Origin: Ferrithrix thermotolerans DSM 19514
GTDB lineage: Bacteria; Actinomycetota; Acidimicrobiia; Acidimicrobiales; Acidimicrobiaceae
Direction of reading: 5' to 3'
Assembly (NCBI RefSeq): GCF_900128965.1
Contig: NZ_FQUL01000003.1
Location: forward strand, 1-64,000
DNA: 64,000 nt
The notes under the pieces: generated by a model
Databases searched by the model: none
What the model was told of the DNA's origin: nothing
The model's input: only the letters and a program-made list of their open reading frames with translations
Position numbers and translations under genes: made by a program
In this document: positions 4,151-39,216 of the stretch, one piece after another
How positions within the stretch are numbered: position 1 is the stretch's first letter
Layout: every line of letters begins with the position of its first letter

Positions 4151-5401
4151 TTGTCGATCGGAAGGATGATCGGATTGAAGTTACTAAGAGACAGAGCTTT
4201 AGAACTTGATGAACGAGACGTTCTGGCTAAGTATAAAGACGAGTACGAACTGCATGTAGATGACACTATCTATATGGATGGAAACTCCTTGGGCCAATTG
4301 TCGAAAAGTGCTCGTAGCGCAGTTATAGACACCTTGGATCTGCAGTGGGGTAGAGACAAAGTCGCAGCCTGGGATCGGTGGCTCTATCTTTGTGAGACTG
4401 TCGGTAACGCAATAGGAAGTGGCTTTCTTGGGGCTGAAGAGGGAGAGGTTATCGTCTCCGACTCGACCTCTGTCAATCTCTACAAGCTCGCAGTTGCTGC
4501 AGTGTCTGTGCAAAAAAACCGGGGGAGGATCGTGACCGATGACCAAAATTTTCCCACCGACCGGTACATCCTTACTGGCATAGCCGAGCAGATGTCACTT
4601 GAACTTACGGTAGTGCACTCAGACCGAGACGGTGCAGTGACAGAAGCTGACCTTGCGGAGGTTCTAGATGAAGACGTTGCACTTGTGAGCCTCTCTCATG
4701 TCAACTATCGCTCTGGAGGTTTGTCCGATATGAGAGAGATAAATCGAGCTGTTCACGGTGTTGGAGCGTTTTCGCTTTGGGATCTTTCGCACTCGGTGGG
4801 AGTGGTTCCTATCGATCTTGACGAAGAGGGTTGTGACCTAGCTGTCGGATGTACTTATAAGTATCTAAATGGAGGTCCAGGATCTCCTGCGTTTCTGTAC
4901 ATCCGAGACGAGTTGATCGATAAGCTTTCCCAGCCGATCTGGGGATGGTTCTCTACTGCAGATCAGTTTGAGATGGGTGACCTTTATCTTCCAAAAGATG
5001 GGGTGGGGCGGTTCCAAGTTGGAACTCCTCCAATTTTGTCCGTAGCGGCTCTCTCGGGTGCACTTGAGCCTCTAATTGAAGCGACTATTTCAGCGATTAG
5101 AGAGAAGTCTTTATCCCTGACTACCTTTGCCCAAGAACTGATCGCTGAGTGGCTGCACGATTTGGGATTCATGTTGGCCTCGCCGAGTGACCCCAATGGA
5201 AGAGGAGGACATATCTCTTTATATCACAAAGATGCGAAAGAGATAAACGACCACTTAGTCAAGCGTTATGGAGTCATCACAGACTATCGTGTCCCGGATC
5301 GAATTCGTTTCACACCCTCTCCTATGTACACAAGCTTTACCATGGTCTACGATGCCCTAGAACGGTTGCGGAAATTGGCAATGGGGATGTACAAGCACTA
5401 A
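4151..5401 (+). CDS. kynU: kynureninase
   Basis: A PLP-dependent fold-type I enzyme that hydrolyses L-kynurenine to anthranilate and L-alanine in tryptophan breakdown. The 416-residue length is normal. Visible marks are MDGNSLGQL near residue 42, the WDRW segment, SDSTSVNLYKL near 103-112, and CTYKYLNGGPG with the Schiff-base lysine at residue 237. The start is uncertain: TTG 4151, ATG 4166 or TTG 4175 are in frame, and GGAAGG at 4160-4165 would suit 4175 best. No tryptophan dioxygenase or kynurenine formamidase lies nearby, so the gene stands alone here. It sits behind a 16-bp palindrome and ends before a strong hairpin. Confidence 0.92.
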   Translation: MSIGRMIGLKLLRDRALELDERDVLAKYKDEYELHVDDTIYMDGNSLGQLSKSARSAVIDTLDLQWGRDKVAAWDRWLYLCETVGNAIGSGFLGAEEGEVIVSDSTSVNLYKLAVAAVSVQKNRGRIVTDDQNFPTDRYILTGIAEQMSLELTVVHSDRDGAVTEADLAEVLDEDVALVSLSHVNYRSGGLSDMREINRAVHGVGAFSLWDLSHSVGVVPIDLDEEGCDLAVGCTYKYLNGGPGSPAFLYIRDELIDKLSQPIWGWFSTADQFEMGDLYLPKDGVGRFQVGTPPILSVAALSGALEPLIEATISAIREKSLSLTTFAQELIAEWLHDLGFMLASPSDPNGRGGHISLYHKDAKEINDHLVKRYGVITDYRVPDRIRFTPSPMYTSFTMVYDALERLRKLAMGMYKH

Positions 5402-5419
5402 AGGTTGCAAAATATTGAA

Positions 5420-5449
5420 CCCCCCCAAGGAGATTACTCCTTGGGGGGG
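5420..5449. terminator. 13-bp perfect hairpin between convergent kynU and sodN
   Basis: Seven C plus AAGGAG (5420-5432) pair perfectly with CTCCTT plus seven G (5437-5449) around an ATTA loop. It lies between the 3' ends of two convergent genes, so a two-way terminator is likely. Neither side has a long T-run, though the minus-strand side has TATTTT close by. Confidence 0.65.
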
Positions 5450-5493
5450 GTCGGCTTTGATTTGAGAAATACCTACTTTGGTCTGTGGTGTAT

Positions 5494-5910
5494 TTACTTC
5501 TTTGTCTCCCAGAATATCTCAGCGATCTGGTCGATCTCTGAGAGAAGCCGGTCGCCTACCGCTACATCGTTTGTTTTCTTCGACTCGCCAGCAGTCTTGG
5601 TCGCCTTCCAAAACAGCTCGTGAAGTTGAGGGTACTTAGCTAGATGCTCTGGCTTGAAGTAGTCTGTCCACAGTACCCATAGATGATGCTTTACCAACTC
5701 TGCGCGCTCTTCTTTTATGGTAACTGCGCGTTCTTTGAATACCGGATCGTCTGACGCGTTGAACTTCTCCATAATTGACTTTACTGACTGTGCCTCTATT
5801 CGCGCTTGGGCGGGGTCATAGACGCCGCAGGGTAGGTCACAGTGGGCAGAGACTTGTGTCGGACGTGAGATTTTATCGATTGTGTTTAGCACTCGATAGA
5901 AAATGCGCAT
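5494..5910 (-). CDS. sodN: nickel superoxide dismutase precursor
   Basis: Ni-SOD disproportionates superoxide to oxygen and hydrogen peroxide. The 138-residue precursor has a 22-residue leader ending VSA, then the nickel hook HCDLPCGVYDP. Mature His1, Cys2 and Cys6 (precursor His23, Cys24, Cys28) bind nickel. The body carries the family blocks KHHLWVLWTDYFKPEHL and LFWKATK, and the mature length of 116 matches known enzymes. The ATG at 5910 has an AAGGAG upstream. It is divergent from the maturation protease gene sodX, about 100 bp apart, as expected for this pair. Nickel-dependent control by a Nur-type repressor is known in Streptomyces; no clear Nur box was found here. Confidence 0.95.
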   Translation of the reverse strand: MRIFYRVLNTIDKISRPTQVSAHCDLPCGVYDPAQARIEAQSVKSIMEKFNASDDPVFKERAVTIKEERAELVKHHLWVLWTDYFKPEHLAKYPQLHELFWKATKTAGESKKTNDVAVGDRLLSEIDQIAEIFWETKK

Positions 5911-6008
5911 TGGCTCTCCTTCGTTCTGAAGATATTTTCTTTTCTATCCATAACATTAGTCAACCTACTTGAGACTGGCACCTTGTCGGAGAAGGTAGTT
6001 TCTAATAT

Positions 6009-6416
6009 GTGTTGCAGTTGAGAGTGAACAGAGGCCGAGGATCCAAGGCGAAGTCCTCTCTAGTAGTTACCTTATTGCTTTGCGTGGTTTTAATCCTGGC
6101 AGTTAAGCAGAGATACATTAGATTTGAGGTTACTGGAGATTCGATGTATCCGACTCTAACACCCGGCGATAAGGTGATCGTTGGGAAGAACCGTAGGTGC
6201 AGAGTCGGTGACGTGGTTGTTTTGTCGGATCCCAGAGATAGACGTTCGCTGATCGTCAAGCGAGTTCAAGATATCTGTGAAACAGAGGTATATGTCGTCG
6301 GTGACAACCCGGATTCTTCCACTGACTCAAGGCACTTTGGGCCTGTTCCTTTAGATTTAATTGTTGGAAGTGTAAAGATGCGCTACTATCCCTTAGGAGC
6401 TTCGGGGAGTCTCTGA
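6009..6416 (+). CDS. sodX: nickel-type superoxide dismutase maturation protease (S26 family)
   Basis: A small signal-peptidase-like protein (135 residues) expected to remove the Ni-SOD leader and expose His1 of the nickel hook. It has one membrane anchor (about 17-33), then GDSMYPTL with the catalytic serine at 45 and IVKRV with the general-base lysine at 84. A GDNPDSSTDSRHFGPV block typical of S26 peptidases follows near residue 100. The match of family and divergent position beside sodN gives the specific call. The GTG at 6009 is chosen; other GTG/TTG codons lie in frame just downstream. An RsiG-like gene follows after 21 nt, probably in the same transcript. Confidence 0.88.
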   Translation: MLQLRVNRGRGSKAKSSLVVTLLLCVVLILAVKQRYIRFEVTGDSMYPTLTPGDKVIVGKNRRCRVGDVVVLSDPRDRRSLIVKRVQDICETEVYVVGDNPDSSTDSRHFGPVPLDLIVGSVKMRYYPLGASGSL

Positions 6417-6437
6417 GAAGCCATGAGGAGGAGCTAA

Positions 6438-6944
6438 GTGGAAAGATCGTTAGATGAAGCGATTTCAAAGGTTCTGGAACGAAGCTACGTACAAGACGTC
6501 TCCGATATAGACATAGAAGAACTCAGATCAAGGCGAGAGTACGCGAGACGCTTGGAGTCTGTTTTATCCTACGCTAGGAGGCTTCTTCAGGCGCGTATCG
6601 ATATCGCCAAGAATTCGAGCGAGGGAGATGTAGTCACCGAGCAGCTTTCCCAAACTCTGGCACGTAGCGTGAAGGGACCCGAAACTGCTACTCGACACGT
6701 CGAGGTTGAACTATCGGAGGAGTTACAGGCTTTAGCCGATCAATGGATCGAAGCGGTCGTTGAACCGCACTCAAACCTCTCGAACATTGAGCTTCTCATC
6801 CGACTAGAGGAGGCTGAAGCGGGAATATCGTCCAAACGACATCAGTTGCATGAAGTGCTGAACGTTCTTAGTTCTGAGGTCAAGGGTCGATACATAAGGG
6901 GTGAGGCTTCGATCGACACCGTGCTAGGGGAGAAGCCGGTTTGA
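6438..6944 (+). CDS. RsiG-like c-di-GMP-binding anti-sigma factor candidate
   Basis: A 168-residue, helix-rich, charged protein without membrane segments. Residues 40-55 read E-SVL-S-YA-R-RLL-Q-ARI-D, an exact fit to the E(x3)S(x2)R(x3)Q(x3)D signature by which RsiG binds c-di-GMP (E40, S44, R47, Q51, D55). In Streptomyces, RsiG with c-di-GMP holds the sporulation sigma factor WhiG. Streptomyces RsiG has two copies of the motif; only one is visible here, as in the homodimeric Rubrobacter protein. A second, coiled-coil-like region spans about 95-155. GTG 6438 has a strong GAGGAGGAG upstream. No WhiG-type sigma gene is nearby, so the partner is unknown. Family call is by motif; function is inferred. 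Confidence 0.75.
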   Translation: MERSLDEAISKVLERSYVQDVSDIDIEELRSRREYARRLESVLSYARRLLQARIDIAKNSSEGDVVTEQLSQTLARSVKGPETATRHVEVELSEELQALADQWIEAVVEPHSNLSNIELLIRLEEAEAGISSKRHQLHEVLNVLSSEVKGRYIRGEASIDTVLGEKPV

Positions 6945-6995
6945 TTATGTCAATGTGTACTGGCACGTGAAGTTTAGGGGAAGGAAACCATTTCA

Positions 6996-8234
6996 TTGCG
7001 TATTGCCATGATCTCTTACCATACCTCACCGTTGGCACAGCCAGGAGTTGGTGATGGAGGTGGAATGAATGTGTACGTTAGGCAGCTGGCGACGGCACTT
7101 GCAAGATTGGGCATTCACTGTGACGTCTATACTCGGGCTGACTCCAAAGATGACGTTGGCTCTGTCAGGGTTGAGCCTGGTTTCGAGGTGCACTTCATTG
7201 AGTCTGGACCGAAGAGGGATCTCCCCAAGGAGCGTCTTTTGCAGTACGTGCGTCACTTTACTGATGGCGTTCTAAGACATATTTTCACCGAACGAAACGG
7301 CCACGTCGACCTTGTTCACGCTAATTACTGGCTCTCGGGAATTGCGGGCCACACGATCAAACACGAGCTGAACGTACCCCTCTTTACCAGTTTTCACACG
7401 CTAGAGAAGGCTAAGAAGATTGGACGGGAGTCTCCAGATGACGGGTACGACTCCACTGTGCGCATATGGCATGAGCAACGGGTCATGGGATGTTCAGACG
7501 CCATACTGGCCTCTTGTGGTCCTGAGGCGGAGTGGATAACTAGGCTCTATAACGTAGATCCTTTTCAGATCAGAGTGGTCCCGCTAGGGGTGGATAGAGC
7601 GTTTTTTGCCCCAGGCGACCAGAAGATGGCGAGGAGCGCTATTGGACTTCCCCGAGACGATAAAATCGTCTTATCCGTCGGGAGGGTCCAACCCCTAAAA
7701 GGCTTCCTACTTGGAGCCAAGGCGGTTGAGCGGGTCCTTGAAGAGATGGATGTTCACTTCGTGCTCGTAGGAGGTCCCTCTGGTCCCGAGGGTGAGGATG
7801 AATTAGCTCGGTTACGGGCGATGAGTCGGAGAGGAACCCTAAAGGGCAGGATGCATTTTTTTGCTCCGCAGCCCCACGAGATTCTATCTTCTTTTTACCG
7901 AGCTAGTGATGTTGTGCTGGTGCCCTCAAGAACGGAAAGTTTTGGGTTGGTTGCTCTGGAGGCGTCAGCCACCGCTAAGCCTATAGTTGCGTCAGCGGTG
8001 GGAGGTTTGACAACCCTTGTCAAAGACGGCCGCTCTGGACATCTTGTCAGAGATAGATCTGTCGAGGGTTTTGCTGCCAAGATATCAGGGGTCCTAGCCC
8101 ATTCCGATAGGGGAGAAGCGATGGGGCGCAACGCTTACCATCACACACGTGGCTTTACTTGGAGTAATTCGGCGAAGTATCTGCTAGAGATCTTGGAAGA
8201 CCGTCAAAGTAATGAACTAGTCCTTTGTGGGTAG
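6996..8234 (+). CDS. mshA: MshA-type glycosyltransferase (D-inositol-3-phosphate glycosyltransferase)
   Basis: A GT-B, GT4-family glycosyltransferase of 412 residues. MshA joins N-acetylglucosamine from UDP-GlcNAc to 1D-myo-inositol 3-phosphate, the first committed step of mycothiol synthesis. Marks include the N-terminal ISYHTSPLAQPGVGDGGGMN (close to the MshA acceptor loop), VHANYWLSG near 108, VLSVGRVQPLKG near 225 and the ESFGLVALE E-x7-E motif (Glu314, Glu322). TTG 6996 is the start, about 10 nt after AGGGGAAGGA. Gene order mshA-proC-hemA is also found in mycobacteria, which supports the call. Other mycothiol genes are not in the window, so a different GT4 acceptor remains possible. Confidence 0.8.
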   Translation: MRIAMISYHTSPLAQPGVGDGGGMNVYVRQLATALARLGIHCDVYTRADSKDDVGSVRVEPGFEVHFIESGPKRDLPKERLLQYVRHFTDGVLRHIFTERNGHVDLVHANYWLSGIAGHTIKHELNVPLFTSFHTLEKAKKIGRESPDDGYDSTVRIWHEQRVMGCSDAILASCGPEAEWITRLYNVDPFQIRVVPLGVDRAFFAPGDQKMARSAIGLPRDDKIVLSVGRVQPLKGFLLGAKAVERVLEEMDVHFVLVGGPSGPEGEDELARLRAMSRRGTLKGRMHFFAPQPHEILSSFYRASDVVLVPSRTESFGLVALEASATAKPIVASAVGGLTTLVKDGRSGHLVRDRSVEGFAAKISGVLAHSDRGEAMGRNAYHHTRGFTWSNSAKYLLEILEDRQSNELVLCG

Positions 8235-29070: not shown

Positions 29071-30579
29071 ATGTTCCCCTACCTAGAGGTTCTGGTTTTT
29101 CTTCCGGCGATTGCAGGGGTGCTGCTATTCTTTTTTCCTAGCGAGTTTCCTGCGAGATACTATAGAAGACTGGGCCTGTCACTTTCGCTGGCGGAACTAG
29201 TTGTTGCTGTTGTAATGCTGCTAAAGTTCAAGACCGGTGTAGCAGGATATCAAATGACGTCTTCTTACCGCTGGATTCCCAGCTTTGGGATCTCGTGGTC
29301 CTTAGGCGTCGACGGTATCTCGCTATTTCTGGTGATCCTTAGCGTGGTTCTATTTCCCATCGCCATCTTCGGATCGAAAGAGACGAGGGATCCCAAGTCC
29401 TTTATAGCATGGATGCTGGTCTTGGAAGCTGCGTGTGTTGGAAGTTTCTTGGTCACCGATCTGTTCGACTTTTTCTTGATGTTTGAGCTCACACTGATTC
29501 CCACGTACTTCCTGATGGCTAACTGGGGATTTTCGTTAGGTGGTAGAGCGGCCGTAAAGTTTTTCGTCTATACCTTTCTTGGTTCAGCCTTTCTCCTGGT
29601 AGGAATATTGGCCCTTGTGTTTATACACGAGGCTTCAACGGGCCAACTTACCTTCTCTATCTCAGCCTTAGCCCACACGCAGATGTCGTCTACGGCGGGT
29701 CGGTTACTCTTCCTAGCCTTTAGCGTTGCATTTCTGATCAAGGCTCCCGTGTTCCCTTTCCATACCTGGTCTCCTGATGCCTATTCTCAGTCGCCTATCT
29801 CTACGGCGATAGTTCTCGGTGGAGTCATGGCAAAGTTAGGGACCTACGGTATACTTCGCTTTGACTTCCAACTTTTTCCCCAGGCGTCAAGGTCGTTAGG
29901 TTGGCTTATTCTGACGCTGGCTGTCGTTGGTATAGGATATGGTGCTATCACCGCTGCAGGGGAGAGTCATCTCTCGAGACTCGTGGCGTACTCGTCTCTG
30001 TCTCATATGGGCTTCATCGTCCTTGGACTGTTCGCATTTACCACGATTGGACTGTCGGGTGCCGTACTTCAGATGTTTAATCACGGTATATATACAGCCG
30101 CCCTGTTTTTGTTGTTGGGCATGATCTACTCAAGGCGCAATACTTTGGACACCTCTAAACTCGCGGGATTGCAGAGCAAGGCCCCGGTTATGGCCGGCAT
30201 CTTTACTGTAGTGATGCTTGCTTCGATAGGAGTTCCTGGATTAAATGGCTTCATTGGTGAGTTCATGATACTCCTAGGTGCATTTGTGTCTCATAGGTGG
30301 TGGGCAGTAGTTGGCGTGAGCGGCGTTATCTTGTCTGCAATCTATATGCTCTGGGCTTACCAGAAGGTGTTTCATCGAAAGGACCCTGAGCAGCGTGGAT
30401 TTAAGGATCTCAGCGTAGCGGAAGTGGCAACACTGGTGCCTCTAGTAATTCTGATAGTGGGTGTTGGACTTTTTCCGAGTCTCCTTCTAAATAGGATCAA
30501 CCCTTCGGTTCACAAGGTTCTTTCAGAGGCGACTCCTGCTTCTTCATACCAGTCTTCTCTTGGAAAGGTGGGACGATGA
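29071..30579 (+). CDS. nuoM: NADH-quinone oxidoreductase subunit M
   Basis: Second antiporter-like pump subunit (502 residues, about 14 helices). Seen are FELTLIPTYFLMANWGF with the conserved glutamate near 140, KAPVFPFHTWSPDAYSQSP near 227 with the lysine, and SLSHMGFIVLGLF. ATG 29071 has AGGAGGG upstream. The stop overlaps the nuoN ATG. Confidence 0.97.
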   Translation: MFPYLEVLVFLPAIAGVLLFFFPSEFPARYYRRLGLSLSLAELVVAVVMLLKFKTGVAGYQMTSSYRWIPSFGISWSLGVDGISLFLVILSVVLFPIAIFGSKETRDPKSFIAWMLVLEAACVGSFLVTDLFDFFLMFELTLIPTYFLMANWGFSLGGRAAVKFFVYTFLGSAFLLVGILALVFIHEASTGQLTFSISALAHTQMSSTAGRLLFLAFSVAFLIKAPVFPFHTWSPDAYSQSPISTAIVLGGVMAKLGTYGILRFDFQLFPQASRSLGWLILTLAVVGIGYGAITAAGESHLSRLVAYSSLSHMGFIVLGLFAFTTIGLSGAVLQMFNHGIYTAALFLLLGMIYSRRNTLDTSKLAGLQSKAPVMAGIFTVVMLASIGVPGLNGFIGEFMILLGAFVSHRWWAVVGVSGVILSAIYMLWAYQKVFHRKDPEQRGFKDLSVAEVATLVPLVILIVGVGLFPSLLLNRINPSVHKVLSEATPASSYQSSLGKVGR

Positions 30580-32162
30580 ACTTGGTCGCAACGGTGCTTT
30601 CCGGAGCGCCGATACAGTTCCCGTCGATATCATACAGTTCAATACTCCCTGAAGTTGTCTTCGTTGGAGCTGCTGTGTTGTCGATGCTGTTGGTAGCTGT
30701 TCTTGGACAGCGTGATCAGACCTATGGATACACTGGACTTGGGGTGGCGGCTGCGCTATTTGGCGGCATATGGAGCTATCATCTCAGTCAGAACGTAAAT
30801 GCTCGTGGGGCTTACGCAGTTGTGGGCGGATCACTTGCTGTGGATGGTTTTTCAACCTTTTTCATGATCCTTACATCCGTCGGAGTCCTAATTACGTTGC
30901 TTTTGGCTGAAGCCTATCTTTATAAGGTAAGTCACAGGGGTCCGGAGTTTGTCGCCTTAACCTTGTTGTCGGCGACCGGCGCTATGTTAATGGAGTCTGC
31001 ATACGACCTACTGGTGCTTTTTATCGGACTTGAGATACTTTCGATCTCGTTATATGTTATGGTCTCCTATACAACCTCTAGGAGAGTGTCAAAGGAAAGC
31101 GCCTTTAAGTACTTCATACTCGGAGGATTTGCTTCGGCCTTGTTCCTTTATGGACTGGCGCTTGTCTATGGTTCAACTGGATCGACAAACCTAGGGAATA
31201 TTGCAGCGTTTCTTTCTAAGAATACTCTTACATCAAATGGCGTGTTGTTAGCTGGGATGGTCCTTATCCTAGGCGGACTTGGATTTAAGGTCGCGGTAGT
31301 CCCCTTTCAGTTCTGGACCCCTGACGTATATCAAGGTGCTCCAACCTCCGTCACCGGGTTTATGTCGGGCGTGGTCAAAGCAGCGGGATTCGCTGCACTA
31401 CTTAGAGTGTTCTATTTCGCGTTCAACACTTTGCGTGCGGACTGGCAACCTGTTCTTGAGATTGTGGCAATCCTAACTCTGCTCGTGGGAGCGGTGCTGG
31501 CAGTGGTTCAAAGTGATGCCAAAAGGACACTCGCCTACTCTTCGATCAACCACGCGGGATTTATCCTGCTAGGACTCTACGTCGCTTCAGCTGCGTCAAT
31601 TGGGGACTCGTTGTACTATCTGTTCGCATACACAGTGATGTCTTCGGGTACATTTGGTGCGATCTCCATGATTGCTCATCTTGAGGGACGTACTGAAGGC
31701 ACCTTGTCTCTAGCCGACCTAAGAGGGATCGGTCGCAAGTATCCAAAGATAGCCCTGACACTTGCGATCTTGTTACTAGCACAGGCCGGTGCTCCCTTTA
31801 CCATCGGATTCCTGGCAAAGTTCTCGGTTCTCTCGTCTGTGGTAGAAGCTCACCATTACGTTATCGCAGTGATAGCTATGGTATCGGTTGTAATCGCTGC
31901 CGTACTCTATCTCAGAGTTACACTGTCCATGTATACCCCTCTCACCAAGGATGCGGAGATCGACAGGGTGTCTACGGATCCAGAGATATCTCTTGGGGCG
32001 GTTGCAGTAAGAGTTGATGAGGATACCGATCTGAAGGTGGACGCAAAGGTACCGGTGGCTGCGGGCCTGGCGATGGGGCTTTCGGTGGCGATGACTGTGG
32101 GTTTTGGGCTTTATGCCAGTCCCTTAGTTCAGTTCGCATCGAAGGCGTTCCTGCTCCGATAG
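30576..32162 (+). CDS. nuoN: NADH-quinone oxidoreductase subunit N
   Basis: Third antiporter-like pump subunit (528 residues). The motifs GLEILSISLYVMVSY near 150, KVAVVPFQFWTPDVYQGAPT near 235 and SSINHAGFILLGLY are clear. An acidic loop of about 35 residues before the last helix is longer than usual. Last gene of the nuo operon; no strong terminator was found behind it. Confidence 0.97.
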   Translation: MNLVATVLSGAPIQFPSISYSSILPEVVFVGAAVLSMLLVAVLGQRDQTYGYTGLGVAAALFGGIWSYHLSQNVNARGAYAVVGGSLAVDGFSTFFMILTSVGVLITLLLAEAYLYKVSHRGPEFVALTLLSATGAMLMESAYDLLVLFIGLEILSISLYVMVSYTTSRRVSKESAFKYFILGGFASALFLYGLALVYGSTGSTNLGNIAAFLSKNTLTSNGVLLAGMVLILGGLGFKVAVVPFQFWTPDVYQGAPTSVTGFMSGVVKAAGFAALLRVFYFAFNTLRADWQPVLEIVAILTLLVGAVLAVVQSDAKRTLAYSSINHAGFILLGLYVASAASIGDSLYYLFAYTVMSSGTFGAISMIAHLEGRTEGTLSLADLRGIGRKYPKIALTLAILLLAQAGAPFTIGFLAKFSVLSSVVEAHHYVIAVIAMVSVVIAAVLYLRVTLSMYTPLTKDAEIDRVSTDPEISLGAVAVRVDEDTDLKVDAKVPVAAGLAMGLSVAMTVGFGLYASPLVQFASKAFLLR

Positions 32163-33280: not shown

Positions 33281-33829
33281 TTAGAGGTCCACCTCCACGA
33301 TGGCCTCTACCTCTACGGAACTGCCTAAGGGTAAGGAAGAGACTCCCACAGCCGATCGGGCGTGGCGTCCAGTCTCTCCAAATACCTGAACTATGAAGTC
33401 CGAGGCACCGTTAATTACCAGTGGTTGTTGCGTAAAGGTTGCGGTACTGGCTACGAATCCGGTCAGCTTGATCCAGTTCTTCACCTTCGTTAGTGATCCC
33501 AGATCACTATGCAGCCTTGCGATTAGGTTTAAGGCGCACAACTGAGCTGCCTTTGCAGCTTCGGACTCTGAGACCGTGTTTCCAACTACGCCAGGGGCGT
33601 ATAGAGCACCCTCTGGATCTATTGGGAGGGCTCCTGAGAGGTATGCGATATTTCCCTGGAGCCTCATTGGAACGTAAGATCCTTTGGGAGATGTGGGTGT
33701 AGGCAGCTTCAGCCCTAGCTCTTCTATAGCTCTGTATGGGTCATTGGTCATGCACTTCAAGCTAGCACTTGAAATATCAGATCTTGTTATTAGAACCGGG
33801 AAATCATCGTAGTTTTGCGAAAGGGACAC
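33281..33829 (-). CDS. RidA family (YjgF/YER057c/UK114) protein
   Basis: A RidA-family protein; the family includes enamine/imine deaminases that clear reactive 2-aminoacrylate. Marks are GNIAYLSGALPID near 59, the NLIARL helix and the C-terminal RSAVGVSSLPLGSSVEVEAI block. The typical subfamily protein would start at ATG 33751 (MTNDPYRAIEELG). However, GTG 33829 has a perfect AAGGAG 8 nt upstream and is preferred, adding 26 residues. It lacks a clear catalytic arginine in the usual RidA context, so deaminase activity is not assured. It lies downstream of the lysyltransferase gene on the same strand. Confidence 0.85.
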   Translation of the reverse strand: MSLSQNYDDFPVLITRSDISSASLKCMTNDPYRAIEELGLKLPTPTSPKGSYVPMRLQGNIAYLSGALPIDPEGALYAPGVVGNTVSESEAAKAAQLCALNLIARLHSDLGSLTKVKNWIKLTGFVASTATFTQQPLVINGASDFIVQVFGETGRHARSAVGVSSLPLGSSVEVEAIVEVDL

Positions 33830-33862: not shown

Positions 33863-36778
33863 TTAGTGCATGATCAGACGACCTATCAAAGGAATATCCC
33901 ATAGAGACTCTGCCCTGGCAATGGCGATAGCAACGTTTGGAATGTCTTCTACGTTATCGTATATTAGGTACCTTGGCGCCCAGGTGGGGTTGAACTTCGA
34001 GTTGAACCGCCAAAGCGACTCGATCTGCATGGAGTCGGAGAGGCGTTCAAGTGCCCATCTTTCCATGCGTTGTGAAAGTCCGCCTCCTCGCTCACCCGCC
34101 AGGGTTGCTCTAAGCGCAGCAAAGTTTAGACTAAGGTACCTTACCTCCGTCGACGACAGATGGGAAAGTGTCTCAACGATCAAGAGATCCATCATCCCAT
34201 TTGGATGCTCTCCAATCTCTCTGCGCATCAGGTCCAGGGAGTACCCCTGTCCATGGTTGGTTGGTACCCACTGACAGAATCCAACGATTCGGCCCTCCTT
34301 GGACCTGCATATACTAAGTAAAAGGTCTTTGTCGCGTGGGTCAAAGATGCGACCCAGCGTCATCGAAAAGCCTCTTTCGACGCCGCCGCGACGGGACTCG
34401 GAAAGGACCCTTACGACGTCGTCTTTGTCGTCGTCGTTTATGCTAGAGCTCTTGATTAGTTCCACGGTGTAACCGTACTTCTTCATCCTGTTGACTGCTT
34501 GCCGTAGAGATTTGTTAGCCTTTCCCAAAAGGGGGATCTCTCGCGCCTCCACGATGGCTTCGTCCCCGATGTAGTAGGGATGAAGGCCAAGGCTTTGGTA
34601 GGTGTCGATCCACTCAGCTGAGGCGCCCAGTACAGCGATCGATAGACCTCTTCGTTTCATATCTGACAAAAAGTGCTCGAATACCATCTCGCGGACCCCT
34701 TTTGGTCCTACGGGGTCTGGCGAGACTACGCAGGTAGAACCAAAGACCGAGTAGGCGATCAATGTGGACCTCTCTACAAAGTGAGTTTTGTCATCTCGAA
34801 GTGCGAAGTAGTCAAGGGTGCCGTTGCCGTACATCCTTACGAGAGAGAAGGGGTCGTTGGCAGAAGACGAGTCGAAGATGTCGTGTGCGATTGAGCTAAC
34901 AAGTGGGTTGAACAAGGTGTAGGCAACTATTCCAAGCGTCGCTATGCCTGTATAGGTCAGCGCTGGTGTGATGATCCGGTTGAGGTCTGGATCCAAGTTT
35001 ACGGTTGCCACGCCTACCATCCTCTCTGCTGTGGCAAAGAAAACAGTTCCTATGGGGAGCAGTTGCCTCTTGGCTAATGCGTAGAAACCCTCTACTGAGA
35101 GCACTCCGGTGAAGAGTACTGCAAACAATGGTCTAGCCGCCCTCAGAATTCTTTTTTGTTCTTTTGCCGGCGCTGCCTGAAACGATCGCCTGTTCGCAAA
35201 CAGGTATATTCCCGCCAGTATCAACAGGAACGACTCCTCAAGATCACCACCTTTTATGAGGTTTGATACTACTCCAGCTGCGATTGCTGCGATAGTTAGA
35301 GCCCATGCGCGACGCGACCCCCGTCTAACTCCGGCAGCGAGTGAGATAGTGGCCACTCCGATGAGGGCCGTTGCAGAGTTCGCATAGTTTGAGACCACAC
35401 TTGGAAGAAGTGCAAGGATTGCATGTATCCTCGCTCGAAGTGGAGGAGTGAATGACGATAGAAGCTCCAAGAAGCCCATGGATGTCAAAGCTACGTAACT
35501 GATCCTTCTAGCTCTATATGTGTCATTCCTAGTAGCTTTTCCAACCTGAGGGTAATTTTTGCCTCCAGGGTGCGTAGCTAGAACCTCAACGAATTTGGCC
35601 TGACGATTAGAGTCTTTTAGTAGAAGTCGCGTAAACCAACTTGTCCGTGCTTCAATGCCGATCTGCATCAATCTTACGTAGAACTCTTCGTAGACAGATA
35701 TCTCCAACCAGGAACACCGTCCGACCTCAAGGAACGTGTCAGGCAGGCCGAGTCGGGTGTGGAACCGGCGGTAGCTTGAACCTACCGAACCAGGGGATGC
35801 AAGGAAAGAGTTCTCGCCCACACTAAGGAGCGAGGGGGAAAATCCCCTAGAGCTGATGAGCCCCCGAGCAACAGCCTCGGTTTCAACTAGTCCAAGTTGT
35901 TGAATGGAGTCTCCCTCTTCCAGCACTGTCTCAGTGGCTCTTTCGAGGGAGCGAAATATTTTTCGAGCAAAGATCAAATAGAGGATGGATATCACGAAAG
36001 CGTCTACCAGGGTGTTTGCACCGACGGTGAAGAGTTGATGGTTCAGCAGGTGACGGTGAGACTTTAGTCTTGATAGGAGTGGAAGAGTTAGGACTAAGGG
36101 AATCTTTAGGGCGAGAGCGACAAAGATAGGAGCTAAGGCCAGAGGTAGGTAACGTAATCCCCTCCGGTAGATCAGACGTGATACAACGAAAGCGGAGATA
36201 TCGTTGGTATTCTCCAGTCTGTCAGCACCATGGAGAACCTTGTACTCGTCAGCGATCTTCTTCGTGACCTGTCGAACGGCTGCTTCCGTTTGGGCTATTG
36301 AGTTCTCATCTTTCGTCCCGTACCCACCTGCATCTGAGGTTATCAGTAGCTCCTGTGGATTTACCCCGCTTTCAAGGCGCAACGTGACTGAAGAAGCCAA
36401 CTCTATCTCGACGTAGGTCTCTACAGCTTTTTCTAGGAGATCTGGCGCATCGGCGACCTTTGCGTCAAGCGTTCCCGGGATGAGGATGAACCTGGTGCCC
36501 AGATGATTTCTCAGCTCTCCCAAGGTATCAAATAACTCTTGGTGGCCCCTCACTATATCGAGGAGATCTGAGTTAGTTTTAAGTGTAAGATCAAACAGAT
36601 TACCTGCGAAGATAAGGGTGTCAAGATCTTGTTGCTTCCTTAGTTCTGCGCATAGTGAAGTGAGGGAACCAAGCTTTACTGAGCTCTCACTGCTCGGAGT
36701 GGTTAGGGCTAGATGCGCAAGGATCATCAGCCGTTGACCTTTTTGCACTTCGCAGACGAGAGGCTTGATAATGTTCAT
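33863..36778 (-). CDS. fusion of a degenerate phosphoesterase-like domain and an MprF-like phosphatidylglycerol lysyltransferase
   Basis: A 971-residue membrane protein. Residues 1-400 follow the layout of an actinobacterial membrane-linked calcineurin-like phosphoesterase, including two helices (208-238, 250-272) and a LGLPDTFLEVGRCSWLEI end. The metal motifs are lost: AHLAL stands for DxHL, GNLFDL for GD, PGTLDAK for GNHD, and SRGFSP for GHTHxP. Residues 430-630 hold about six helices of the MprF-like membrane domain (NLIKGGDLEESFLLILAG). Residues 640-971 are the DUF2156 aminoacyltransferase domain (FALRDDKTHFV, SPDPVG, LNFAALRATL). MprF proteins transfer lysine from lysyl-tRNA to phosphatidylglycerol and change surface charge; the substrate here is unproven. 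ATG 36778 has no clear ribosome site. Confidence 0.8.
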   Translation of the reverse strand: MNIIKPLVCEVQKGQRLMILAHLALTTPSSESSVKLGSLTSLCAELRKQQDLDTLIFAGNLFDLTLKTNSDLLDIVRGHQELFDTLGELRNHLGTRFILIPGTLDAKVADAPDLLEKAVETYVEIELASSVTLRLESGVNPQELLITSDAGGYGTKDENSIAQTEAAVRQVTKKIADEYKVLHGADRLENTNDISAFVVSRLIYRRGLRYLPLALAPIFVALALKIPLVLTLPLLSRLKSHRHLLNHQLFTVGANTLVDAFVISILYLIFARKIFRSLERATETVLEEGDSIQQLGLVETEAVARGLISSRGFSPSLLSVGENSFLASPGSVGSSYRRFHTRLGLPDTFLEVGRCSWLEISVYEEFYVRLMQIGIEARTSWFTRLLLKDSNRQAKFVEVLATHPGGKNYPQVGKATRNDTYRARRISYVALTSMGFLELLSSFTPPLRARIHAILALLPSVVSNYANSATALIGVATISLAAGVRRGSRRAWALTIAAIAAGVVSNLIKGGDLEESFLLILAGIYLFANRRSFQAAPAKEQKRILRAARPLFAVLFTGVLSVEGFYALAKRQLLPIGTVFFATAERMVGVATVNLDPDLNRIITPALTYTGIATLGIVAYTLFNPLVSSIAHDIFDSSSANDPFSLVRMYGNGTLDYFALRDDKTHFVERSTLIAYSVFGSTCVVSPDPVGPKGVREMVFEHFLSDMKRRGLSIAVLGASAEWIDTYQSLGLHPYYIGDEAIVEAREIPLLGKANKSLRQAVNRMKKYGYTVELIKSSSINDDDKDDVVRVLSESRRGGVERGFSMTLGRIFDPRDKDLLLSICRSKEGRIVGFCQWVPTNHGQGYSLDLMRREIGEHPNGMMDLLIVETLSHLSSTEVRYLSLNFAALRATLAGERGGGLSQRMERWALERLSDSMQIESLWRFNSKFNPTWAPRYLIYDNVEDIPNVAIAIARAESLWDIPLIGRLIMH

Positions 36779-36954: not shown

Positions 36955-37443
36955 CTAGTCTCGAAAGTTATTGAACTGCAACGGTATTCCAAAGTCTTGG
37001 GCCTTTAGCAGTTCGATCACCTGCTGGAGGTCGTCTCGTTTCTTCGAGGTGACTCGAAGCCGGTCCCCCTGTATCTGGGCCGTAACCCCCTTGGGGCCCT
37101 GTTCTCTGATCGTTTTCGATATCGACTTTGCGTGTTCTTGGTCGATACCTGCAACGATCTTTATGGTTTGCCGTGCGGATCCTCTCGAACCCTCCTCGAC
37201 CTTGCCCCGCTCAAGTGATTTCAGGGATACTTTACGCTTCACTAGCTTCTCTTCAAGTACCGTGGTAAGGGCCTTTAGCCGATCTTCTGTCGATGACGAG
37301 AGTTTCACCTCATCTCCCGATAGCTCGATCGATGAGTTGGTGTCTTTGAAGTCGAAGCGGGTATTCACTTCTCGAGCTGCCTGGTCAACAGCGTTTTTTA
37401 CTTCTTGCATATCAACTTCTGAAACAACATCGAAGGTAGGCAT
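36955..37443 (-). CDS. YajQ family nucleotide-binding protein
   Basis: A 162-residue protein of the YajQ family (UPF0234), with MPTFDVVSEVDMQEVKNAVD at the N-terminus, TRFDFK at 28-33 and the C-terminal VTSKKRDDLQQVIELLK followed by LQFNNFRD. The fold has two ferredoxin-like RNA-binding-type domains. Some members bind c-di-GMP and act with transcription regulators (shown in Xanthomonas); others have been linked to tRNA and GTP binding. Which applies here is unknown. ATG 37443 has no evident Shine-Dalgarno. A tRNA-Tyr gene lies just upstream on the other strand. Confidence 0.93.
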   Translation of the reverse strand: MPTFDVVSEVDMQEVKNAVDQAAREVNTRFDFKDTNSSIELSGDEVKLSSSTEDRLKALTTVLEEKLVKRKVSLKSLERGKVEEGSRGSARQTIKIVAGIDQEHAKSISKTIREQGPKGVTAQIQGDRLRVTSKKRDDLQQVIELLKAQDFGIPLQFNNFRD

Positions 37444-37644: not shown

Positions 37645-39216
37645 GTGGGGCTGTCGACTCGAGAGAAGCTCGTTCCTGGTGGAGTTAGTCCGCACCGTAT
37701 TTTATCGATGTTCCTTGAGTTCGACCCCATGATGTGGGGGACTGTCGGCTCGTTGATGGTGTTCTTGGGGACCTGGCAGTCTAACTCTCCCTTCGTCTCT
37801 AAGATCCCTGGGTCCTGGTTCATAGGCGTCTCAAACTCTCCGTCTCAGGGCAACGCTATTTTGGAACTTGTCGCACGGTGGCTCGTGTATCTGGGGATGG
37901 CTATTGGGCTTTATGTTTGGTCGAAAACGGTGTTTGATATCTACAACGGTAAGTGCTTCGGATCTACTTACCTCTGGACCATGTTTGCCTTGTGGATAAC
38001 CCCTCTGATGCTCTCAGGTCCACTTCTATCGCGTGACGTATATTCCTATGCGGCCCAGGCCGAGATGGTGCGTGTCGGGATCTCACCGTATCTTCAAGGA
38101 CCCATAGCTCTTGGACACTCACCGTTTCTGCCGACAGTGGATCCACTTTGGATGAGGGCTCCAGCTCCTTATGGTCCGGTCTTCCTCTACGTGGGTGACC
38201 TCTTTGTTCATCTCGCAGGTAACTCCCCACTTGGAACTGTTGTTCTGCTCAGAGTAGCCGCACTCGCCGGTGTTATTCTTACTGGGATCTATGCACCAAG
38301 GATCGCATCCATAAACGGATACTCCAAGGATGCAGCGTTTGTTCTCTCTGCACTAAACCCTATATTTCTCTATGATTTGGCATCCGCCGGACACAACGAC
38401 GCCTGGATGGTTGGACTTATGGTGTTTGGGGTCTATCTTGCTTACACAGGCCGATTTGTCTGGGCTAGTGTCGTAGTTACCCTCGCTGGACTTGTCAAGG
38501 CACCGGCGTTTGCAGCTCTTGTCTTTATCGGTGTGCTCTGGGGTGGTTTTGGGTCGCTCAGGAGGAAGATTCGCTATGGCAGCTACGCCCTTTTGATTGG
38601 GGCGATCACGACGGTGGTTCTGGGTGTAGCTACCGGCCTGGGAGTGGGGTGGATTAGGTCTCTGTCAACGCCGGGCGCATCTATTTCCCCTGCGGATCCC
38701 GTTACAGCCGCCGCTACCTTGATTCACGAGGTGGGTTCGTTAGTGGGAGTCCCCGTCTCGACCTACCTTTACCTGTCTGCGATGAGACTGCTCGCTCTGT
38801 TTCTCTCCGGTGTAATAGCTCTTTACCTACTTTTACTCTCGAACGAAAAGAACTGGTTGCGGAATTTGGGGCTAAGCCTCTTAGTAGTTGTCCTTCTTGG
38901 TCCGGTCATATGGCCATGGTACCTTAGCTGGGCTATAGCTTTGTTGGCCTGCAGTGTTGGACGTTATGGGGGAACAGCAGTCGTTGGCTCATCTATCTTA
39001 GCCTTCCCGCTGTCGATGCCGGGAGGCCAGTCCTTCGTAGCGTTAGTAACCTATCTTCTGCTCGCAGTCGTCTTGATCGTCTTTGTGTTGTATCGGAAGC
39101 AGAGTTTGCCCTATCAGATGCGCTTGGTGATCGATGAATACCTGATTAGGGCGAAATGGTTTTTTGAGAGCGAATTTAAATCAAGAGGAACCCAGGTAGA
39201 TTCGAGACCGTCATAG
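37645..39216 (+). CDS. MptB-like polyprenol-phosphomannose-dependent alpha-1,6-mannosyltransferase
   Basis: A GT-C integral membrane glycosyltransferase of 523 residues with about 12 helices. The loop after the first helices holds PLLSRDVYSYAAQAEMVR and GISPYLQGP, the family's acidic active-site region. Further on are YGPVFLYVGDL and ALNPIFLYDLASAGHNDAW. In Corynebacterium MptB starts the alpha-1,6-mannan core of lipomannan from polyprenyl phosphomannose. The same kind of cell-envelope glycan role is likely here, though the acceptor may differ. GTG 37645 follows AAGGTGG. The 3' end overlaps the convergent acetyltransferase gene by 6 bp. Confidence 0.85.
   Translation: MGLSTREKLVPGGVSPHRILSMFLEFDPMMWGTVGSLMVFLGTWQSNSPFVSKIPGSWFIGVSNSPSQGNAILELVARWLVYLGMAIGLYVWSKTVFDIYNGKCFGSTYLWTMFALWITPLMLSGPLLSRDVYSYAAQAEMVRVGISPYLQGPIALGHSPFLPTVDPLWMRAPAPYGPVFLYVGDLFVHLAGNSPLGTVVLLRVAALAGVILTGIYAPRIASINGYSKDAAFVLSALNPIFLYDLASAGHNDAWMVGLMVFGVYLAYTGRFVWASVVVTLAGLVKAPAFAALVFIGVLWGGFGSLRRKIRYGSYALLIGAITTVVLGVATGLGVGWIRSLSTPGASISPADPVTAAATLIHEVGSLVGVPVSTYLYLSAMRLLALFLSGVIALYLLLLSNEKNWLRNLGLSLLVVVLLGPVIWPWYLSWAIALLACSVGRYGGTAVVGSSILAFPLSMPGGQSFVALVTYLLLAVVLIVFVLYRKQSLPYQMRLVIDEYLIRAKWFFESEFKSRGTQVDSRPS

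Follow-up and report, generated by a model that had tools for sequence, protein, structure and literature searches.

The uninterrupted open reading frame at 33863-36778 on the reverse strand of the window, by which we mean the whole 64,000-nucleotide stretch of Ferrithrix thermotolerans DNA that was analysed, was judged real and codes for a predicted protein of 971 residues, in which a pseudo-phosphoesterase domain precedes an MprF subdomain-2-like transmembrane region and a tandem-GNAT lipid aminoacyltransferase. From sequence comparison, we count it as a member of the LysX/MprF family with a new domain architecture that includes a pseudoenzyme domain. It appears fairly probable that the pseudo-phosphoesterase is kept as a lipid-handling or scaffold module, and that it derives from an active lipid phosphoesterase which was fused to a lipid aminoacyltransferase. 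Full-length copies with 60% identity are present in three other genomes of the genus. The first-pass annotation had not recognised the arrangement as a described system, and a full-text search of the open-licence PMC articles agreed with it: no paper was found in which a metallophosphoesterase is joined to MprF or to a phosphatidylglycerol lysyltransferase, and among the articles listed there was none on this gene in Acidimicrobiia.

The C-terminal lipid aminoacyltransferase

Residues 647-940 (33959-34840, reverse strand) match the LPG_synthase_C family PF09924, a tandem-GNAT catalytic domain, with 213.5 bits against a curated cut-off of 27.5 (E 4.7e-63), and a Foldseek search with the synthase part matched the structures 4v36 and 4v34 as well as MprF. 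The synthase site is predicted to be intact on the basis of residues that are invariant across the family; no catalytic-residue papers were found in the literature searched. The preceding membrane region, residues 421-640 (34859-35518, reverse strand), resembles MprF subdomain 2 and the LysX transmembrane part. It aligns with subdomain 2 of the P. aeruginosa (residues 379-481) and R. etli MprF, and the corresponding region of relatives matches PF16995. The NCBIfam LysX model NF002821 spans residues 419-962 with 261 bits (cut-off 742), and the bifunctional MprF model NF033480 scores 216.7 bits (cut-off 600) over about the same residues, both far below the equivalog level.

The Pfam search of the 971-residue protein gave no match to the flippase domain PF03706, and the chain stops at residue 971 after the synthase, with no C-terminal lysyl-tRNA synthetase. 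Since both parts are missing, the C-terminal half is of the LysX/AlaDAGS type and not a complete MprF. Sequence comparison thus confirmed residues ~421-962 as a predicted LysX/MprF-type lipid aminoacyltransferase without the flippase half. The MprF-like lysyltransferase fusion of the first-pass annotation therefore holds as regards a fused lipid aminoacyltransferase, although the enzyme is LysX-like, and the suggested role in lipid flipping lost its support with the missing half. Like the window protein, LysX of Mycobacterium and Corynebacterium and AlaDAGS combine a six-helix transmembrane region with a tandem-GNAT PF09924 synthase and have no flippase half. However, LysX carries a C-terminal LysRS, whereas the window protein has none and has instead an N-terminal (pseudo)phosphoesterase with a transmembrane hairpin. 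Subdomain 2 and the synthase of the MprF proteins of S. aureus, P. aeruginosa and R. tropici are homologous to those of the window protein, but their flippase subdomain 1 (PF03706) is absent from it, and the phosphoesterase-like domain occupies that position in the chain. LysX is a Lys-DAG synthase of Corynebacterium and mycobacteria (PMC10580965). By analogy, the cytosolic tandem-GNAT domain of the window protein would use aminoacyl-tRNA as the donor of an amino acid that it attaches to a lipid of the membrane, either diacylglycerol (DAG) or phosphatidylglycerol (PG).

The N-terminal domain and its metal-binding positions

Direct Pfam and NCBIfam searches with residues 1-420 gave nothing useful, no metallophosphoesterase family being called in the window protein. 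A single-sequence scan of the genome contigs gave no match, and a profile search of the PDB sequences with the N-terminal domain returned weak phosphoesterase matches only. As Pfam is blind to a metallophosphoesterase in the window protein, the fold had to be established through its relatives. Three intact or nearly intact fusions from other genomes, L060, L115 and L067, pass the PF00149 cut-off of 21.5 bits (30.2, 25.5 and 22.9 bits, respectively), and the N-terminal halves of the window protein and L060 align end to end by BLASTP with 23% identity (E 2e-10). When the profile of the degenerate family was compared by hhalign to that of the intact stand-alone relatives, they matched over 389 columns with a probability of 99.8% (E 2.8e-29). 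An AlphaFold2 model built from the family alignment was confident (pLDDT 85, pTM 0.85), and Foldseek placed LpxH first (probability 1.00, E 3e-5, 14% identity), with further matches to purple acid phosphatase, Rv0805 and GpdQ. The TM-scores were modest, at most ~0.59 by target, as would be expected for a domain with a long insertion. Residues 7-414 were thus confirmed, by sequence profiles and modelling, as a predicted calcineurin-like phosphoesterase fold made of two parts on the reverse strand, residues 7-190 (36209-36760) and 305-414 (35537-35866), in line with the layout that had been proposed for the first ~400 residues. LpxH, the UDP-2,3-diacylglucosamine pyrophosphohydrolase, is the nearest solved fold. 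The window domain did not fall into the LpxH sequence family PRK05340, as it had no NCBIfam match and only one A3 member touched the model (E 0.005).

The motif states were taken from profile alignments to the relatives, and eight positions were scored, namely the seven metal ligands and the catalytic histidine. Intact relatives read D,H/D/N,H/H/H,H at these positions and the window protein H,A/N/T,L/S/R,F, so that none of the eight is kept; in its genus, too, all eight are lost. On the reverse strand, motif I has changed from DLH to HLA (AHLAL, residues 21-25, 36704-36718; D22H and H24A), motif II from GD to GN (residues 59-60, 36599-36604; D60N, asparagine being usual here across the degenerate clade), and motif III from GNHD to GTLD (residues 102-105, 36464-36475; N103T and H104L), where the last aspartate, a non-ligand, is alone retained. 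In motif IV EH(G) has become TS(D) (residues 147-149, 36332-36340), with loss of the GH histidine, and in motif V GHTH has become SRGF (residues 310-313, 35840-35851; H311R and H313F). The strings AHLAL, GN, GTLD and SRGF of the first-pass annotation, and its statement that every metal motif is lost, were correct.

The ligand columns, invariant in 16 intact stand-alone relatives, are mostly unremarkable in 94 degenerate fusions. Some traces of the site are left: asparagine is found at the bridging-aspartate position in 76% of the degenerate members, 66% retain the motif I aspartate and ~43% the first histidine of motif V. These traces, including the conserved replacement of the bridging aspartate, could mean that many degenerate members retain some catalysis through an altered site (e.g. 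the first aspartate and the last aspartate of GNHD with new ligands), in which case 'dead' would be too strong a word for the family as a whole. We consider this very improbable, as most of these members lack both the bridging aspartate and the second histidines of motifs I and V, and the window protein has no ligand at all. Moreover, replacing ligands of this kind by alanine costs H. influenzae LpxH much of its activity (PMC5016852).

Conservation in the degenerate fusions lies instead at non-metal positions, namely G51, P341, E354, P400/G402 and the SRxxY motif, whose S200, R201 and Y204 are kept in 98-99% of them and also in most of the intact members. This motif (SRxxYRR in the window protein) stands ahead of a hairpin of two transmembrane helices (~213-231 and ~252-270), found by hydropathy and in the AlphaFold2 model between motifs IV and V; together they span residues 200-281 (35936-36181, reverse strand). 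The domain, which had been called membrane-linked, is indeed associated with the membrane, but the hairpin inside it indicates that it is embedded and not just linked. In P. aeruginosa LpxH a lipid-binding helical insertion (residues 119-173) occupies the corresponding place in the fold, flanked by the metal ligands His114 and His195 (PMC5016852). LpxH is, however, a peripheral enzyme with a helical lid, whereas the window domain has a transmembrane hairpin as its insertion and its metal ligands are gone. The Foldseek list also includes Vps29 and DNA polymerase B subunits, metallophosphoesterase folds that serve as scaffolds and are thus a precedent for a non-catalytic use, although their functions are unrelated to that of the window protein and they are not membrane-embedded.

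Intact, degenerate and domain-less relatives

The fusion, whole or partial, is present in 42 of 60 near relatives. It was found at 80 named loci, most of them labelled as Acidimicrobiales, Acidimicrobiaceae or unplaced Actinobacteria MAGs, and a few further families within the class and the phylum have it as well. After removal of redundancy, 94 fusions have at most three of the eight positions left, and in 8 others seven or all eight remain. Intact fusions (DHDNHHHH) are L060/L124/L198/L250 (genome G269), L088/L125 (G259), L126/L197 (G245), L154/L191 (G426), L155 (G514), L259 (G674) and L286 (G748, at a contig end), and L067/L252 and L115 are one position short. The survey of active versus dead fusions that had been proposed as a check thus showed a degenerate state common to a large clade, together with intact fusions outside the clade of the window. 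Such intact fusions, which had been named as evidence against the reading if they were widespread in sister species, are a small minority.

Stand-alone membrane metallophosphoesterases of other Actinomycetota (e.g. L189, L195 and L180) share the domain and hairpin of the window protein but are unfused, have all metal motifs intact and carry no NCBIfam name. In the sampled set, every stand-alone relative with readable positions was intact. The window's own genome has no further copy of the domain. G037, a genome from the same taxonomic order as the window, carries an intact phosphoesterase of this type (L043/L193) without a nearby synthase, possibly a fusion that has lost it. At another locus (L280, 1586-4446, G717) a phosphoesterase ORF (DHDTHHHH) overlaps a separate synthase ORF in the next frame, so that the fusion may be split here, or the MAG assembly may contain a frameshift. 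Adjacent phosphoesterase/synthase pairs were rejected as a general form, this lone candidate being possibly an assembly frameshift and no PF09924 gene having been found within ~5 kb of the stand-alone phosphoesterases searched.

A tree of the membrane region and synthase (125 rows, quick method, SH-aLRT as the sole support measure), with which a first tree broadly agrees, places all fusions in a single clade (support 100), separate from the non-fused synthases. Within it, a subclade of 97 rows (support 99) contains the window protein and 90 degenerate fusions, along with 6 synthases in which no phosphoesterase domain is visible; one truncated contig accounts for two of these six. All intact members lie outside this subclade, and the base of the fusion clade is unresolved. 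The tree and the surviving intact fusions point to a single fusion of an active phosphoesterase. The simplest history therefore starts from one fusion with an active ancestor; the common ancestor of most of the order then lost catalysis, some further losses took place independently outside the main degenerate subclade, and the whole domain was later deleted several times. Because a few distant cousins keep the intact version, the change from an enzyme to a helper domain can be traced.

Omega values, obtained with the simple counting method of Nei and Gojobori, were 0.07-0.40 for the degenerate domain in ~25 close pairs, against 0.20 in an intact pair; the synthase domain gave ~0.03-0.25. The degenerate domain is thus kept as a protein, though less strictly than the synthase. 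A non-catalytic role, as first supposed, is therefore probable. The domain might also be a decaying passenger, the frame being kept open merely by anchoring through the transmembrane hairpin or by folding in cis, with no regulatory or lipid-presenting role. Its higher omega and lower identity than those of the synthase domain would fit, the N-terminal domain being 46-47% identical between the window protein and its genus mates and the synthase 75-77% (46% and 77% against L002), and this faster evolution is also compatible with a slow decay. So would the wide scatter of residues at the ligand columns and the repeated loss of the whole domain. Four synthases of 590-625 aa (L282, L288, L293 and L298), nested among the degenerate fusions on the tree, seem to have dropped it entirely, so that the domain is dispensable in those lineages; most of the genomes surveyed are MAGs, however, and faulty assembly may explain some of the 'domain-less' or 'split' genes. 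We nevertheless regard a mere passenger as rather unlikely, since all of the pairs compared showed purifying selection (most omega values were under 0.3, near the 0.20 of the intact fusion pair), the frame is open in ~90 non-redundant lineages, and the non-metal positions (SRxxY, G51, P341, E354, P400/G402) and the preference for asparagine at the bridging position (76%) are conserved.

The surroundings of the gene were also compared. A YjgF/RidA-like gene (33281-33829, reverse strand) lies directly downstream, an adjacency that among the loci checked occurs only in the genus of the window. Nearby are nuoM-nuoN (29071-32162) and yajQ/DUF520 (36955-37443), which are not known to be functionally linked to the fusion; one or both adjoin it as in the window at 36-38 loci each, of 83 loci of relatives. 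Within the DNA examined at L060, L067, L088 and L115, which are intact or one position short, this neighbourhood was absent. Beside yajQ, a 523-aa membrane protein (37645-39216, forward strand) without a Pfam match is conserved at 16 loci of relatives. A promoter and terminator scan did no better than on shuffled sequences.

Proposed function and ancestral reaction

In the history that we propose, an active LpxH-like phosphoesterase with a hairpin between motifs IV and V would have been fused once to an aminoacyltransferase. Its original task was probably to strip a phosphate from a lipid and to hand the product to the transferase. Three features make a lipid-phosphate substrate probable: an LpxH-like fold whose membrane hairpin lies where LpxH binds lipid, the fusion to a transferase that uses lipids, and the overlap with a DAG glycosyltransferase-like gene in one stand-alone genus. 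In this genus (G422, G442 and G451) the phosphoesterase gene overlaps a PF06925 gene, as is also the case at L220, L221, L222 and L223. At L195 (G422), for example, the intact phosphoesterase gene (4938-6365) overlaps the start of an MGDG-synthase-like glycosyltransferase gene (6355-7473). The overlap hints at a lipid phosphatase that feeds DAG-using enzymes. A PF06925-like gene is also found near the phosphoesterase in a few other genera, in G432 next door in the other orientation. As these loci are a minority, the idea that such a neighbour is typical of the stand-alone enzymes was discarded. Two other lines were uninformative: PgpA is absent from intact and degenerate genomes alike and did not help with the idea of a PGP phosphatase, and PF03706 proteins, candidates for a flippase in trans, are present in 25 of the 25 genomes checked.

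Alternatively, the ancestral or intact domain may have been an aminoacyl-lipid hydrolase or head-group editor that opposes the transferase, instead of supplying its acceptor lipid. There is a precedent for such a synthase-hydrolase pairing in Agrobacterium, where a Lys-PG synthase and the Lys-PG hydrolase AcvB are encoded in one operon (PMC13197417). AcvB is, however, periplasmic, and stand-alone relatives occur with no PF09924 gene within ~5 kb. Furthermore, a calcineurin-like dimetal site suits phosphoesters and not aminoacyl esters, and we give this alternative very little credence.

Under the preferred reading of a lipid-handling or scaffold module, catalysis would have been lost, as seen at the level of the ligands, in the ancestor of most Acidimicrobiales, the family of the window included. 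The domain, placed where MprF carries its flippase subdomain and probably acting from there, would have been retained most likely because its hairpin and fold present or position a lipid beside the transferase, or hold the complex together. A lipid-presenting or stabilising role is plausible, since in vivo the efficiency of synthesis by MprF depends on its membrane part (PMC8131360). We suggest only tentatively that, in a few lineages, a lipid phosphoesterase embedded in the membrane hands the DAG or PG that it has dephosphorylated directly to the fused transferase, and that most of the order has kept it as a pseudoenzyme which binds lipid and either regulates the transferase or loads it.

The protein would give a new front half to an enzyme family that sets envelope charge and is tied to resistance to cationic peptides. 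With its intact, half-eroded, dead and domain-less forms, a single gene family offers a series from enzyme to pseudoenzyme, in which the target of the membrane phosphoesterase, and the remaining contribution of a dead enzyme domain to lipid aminoacylation, can be tested.
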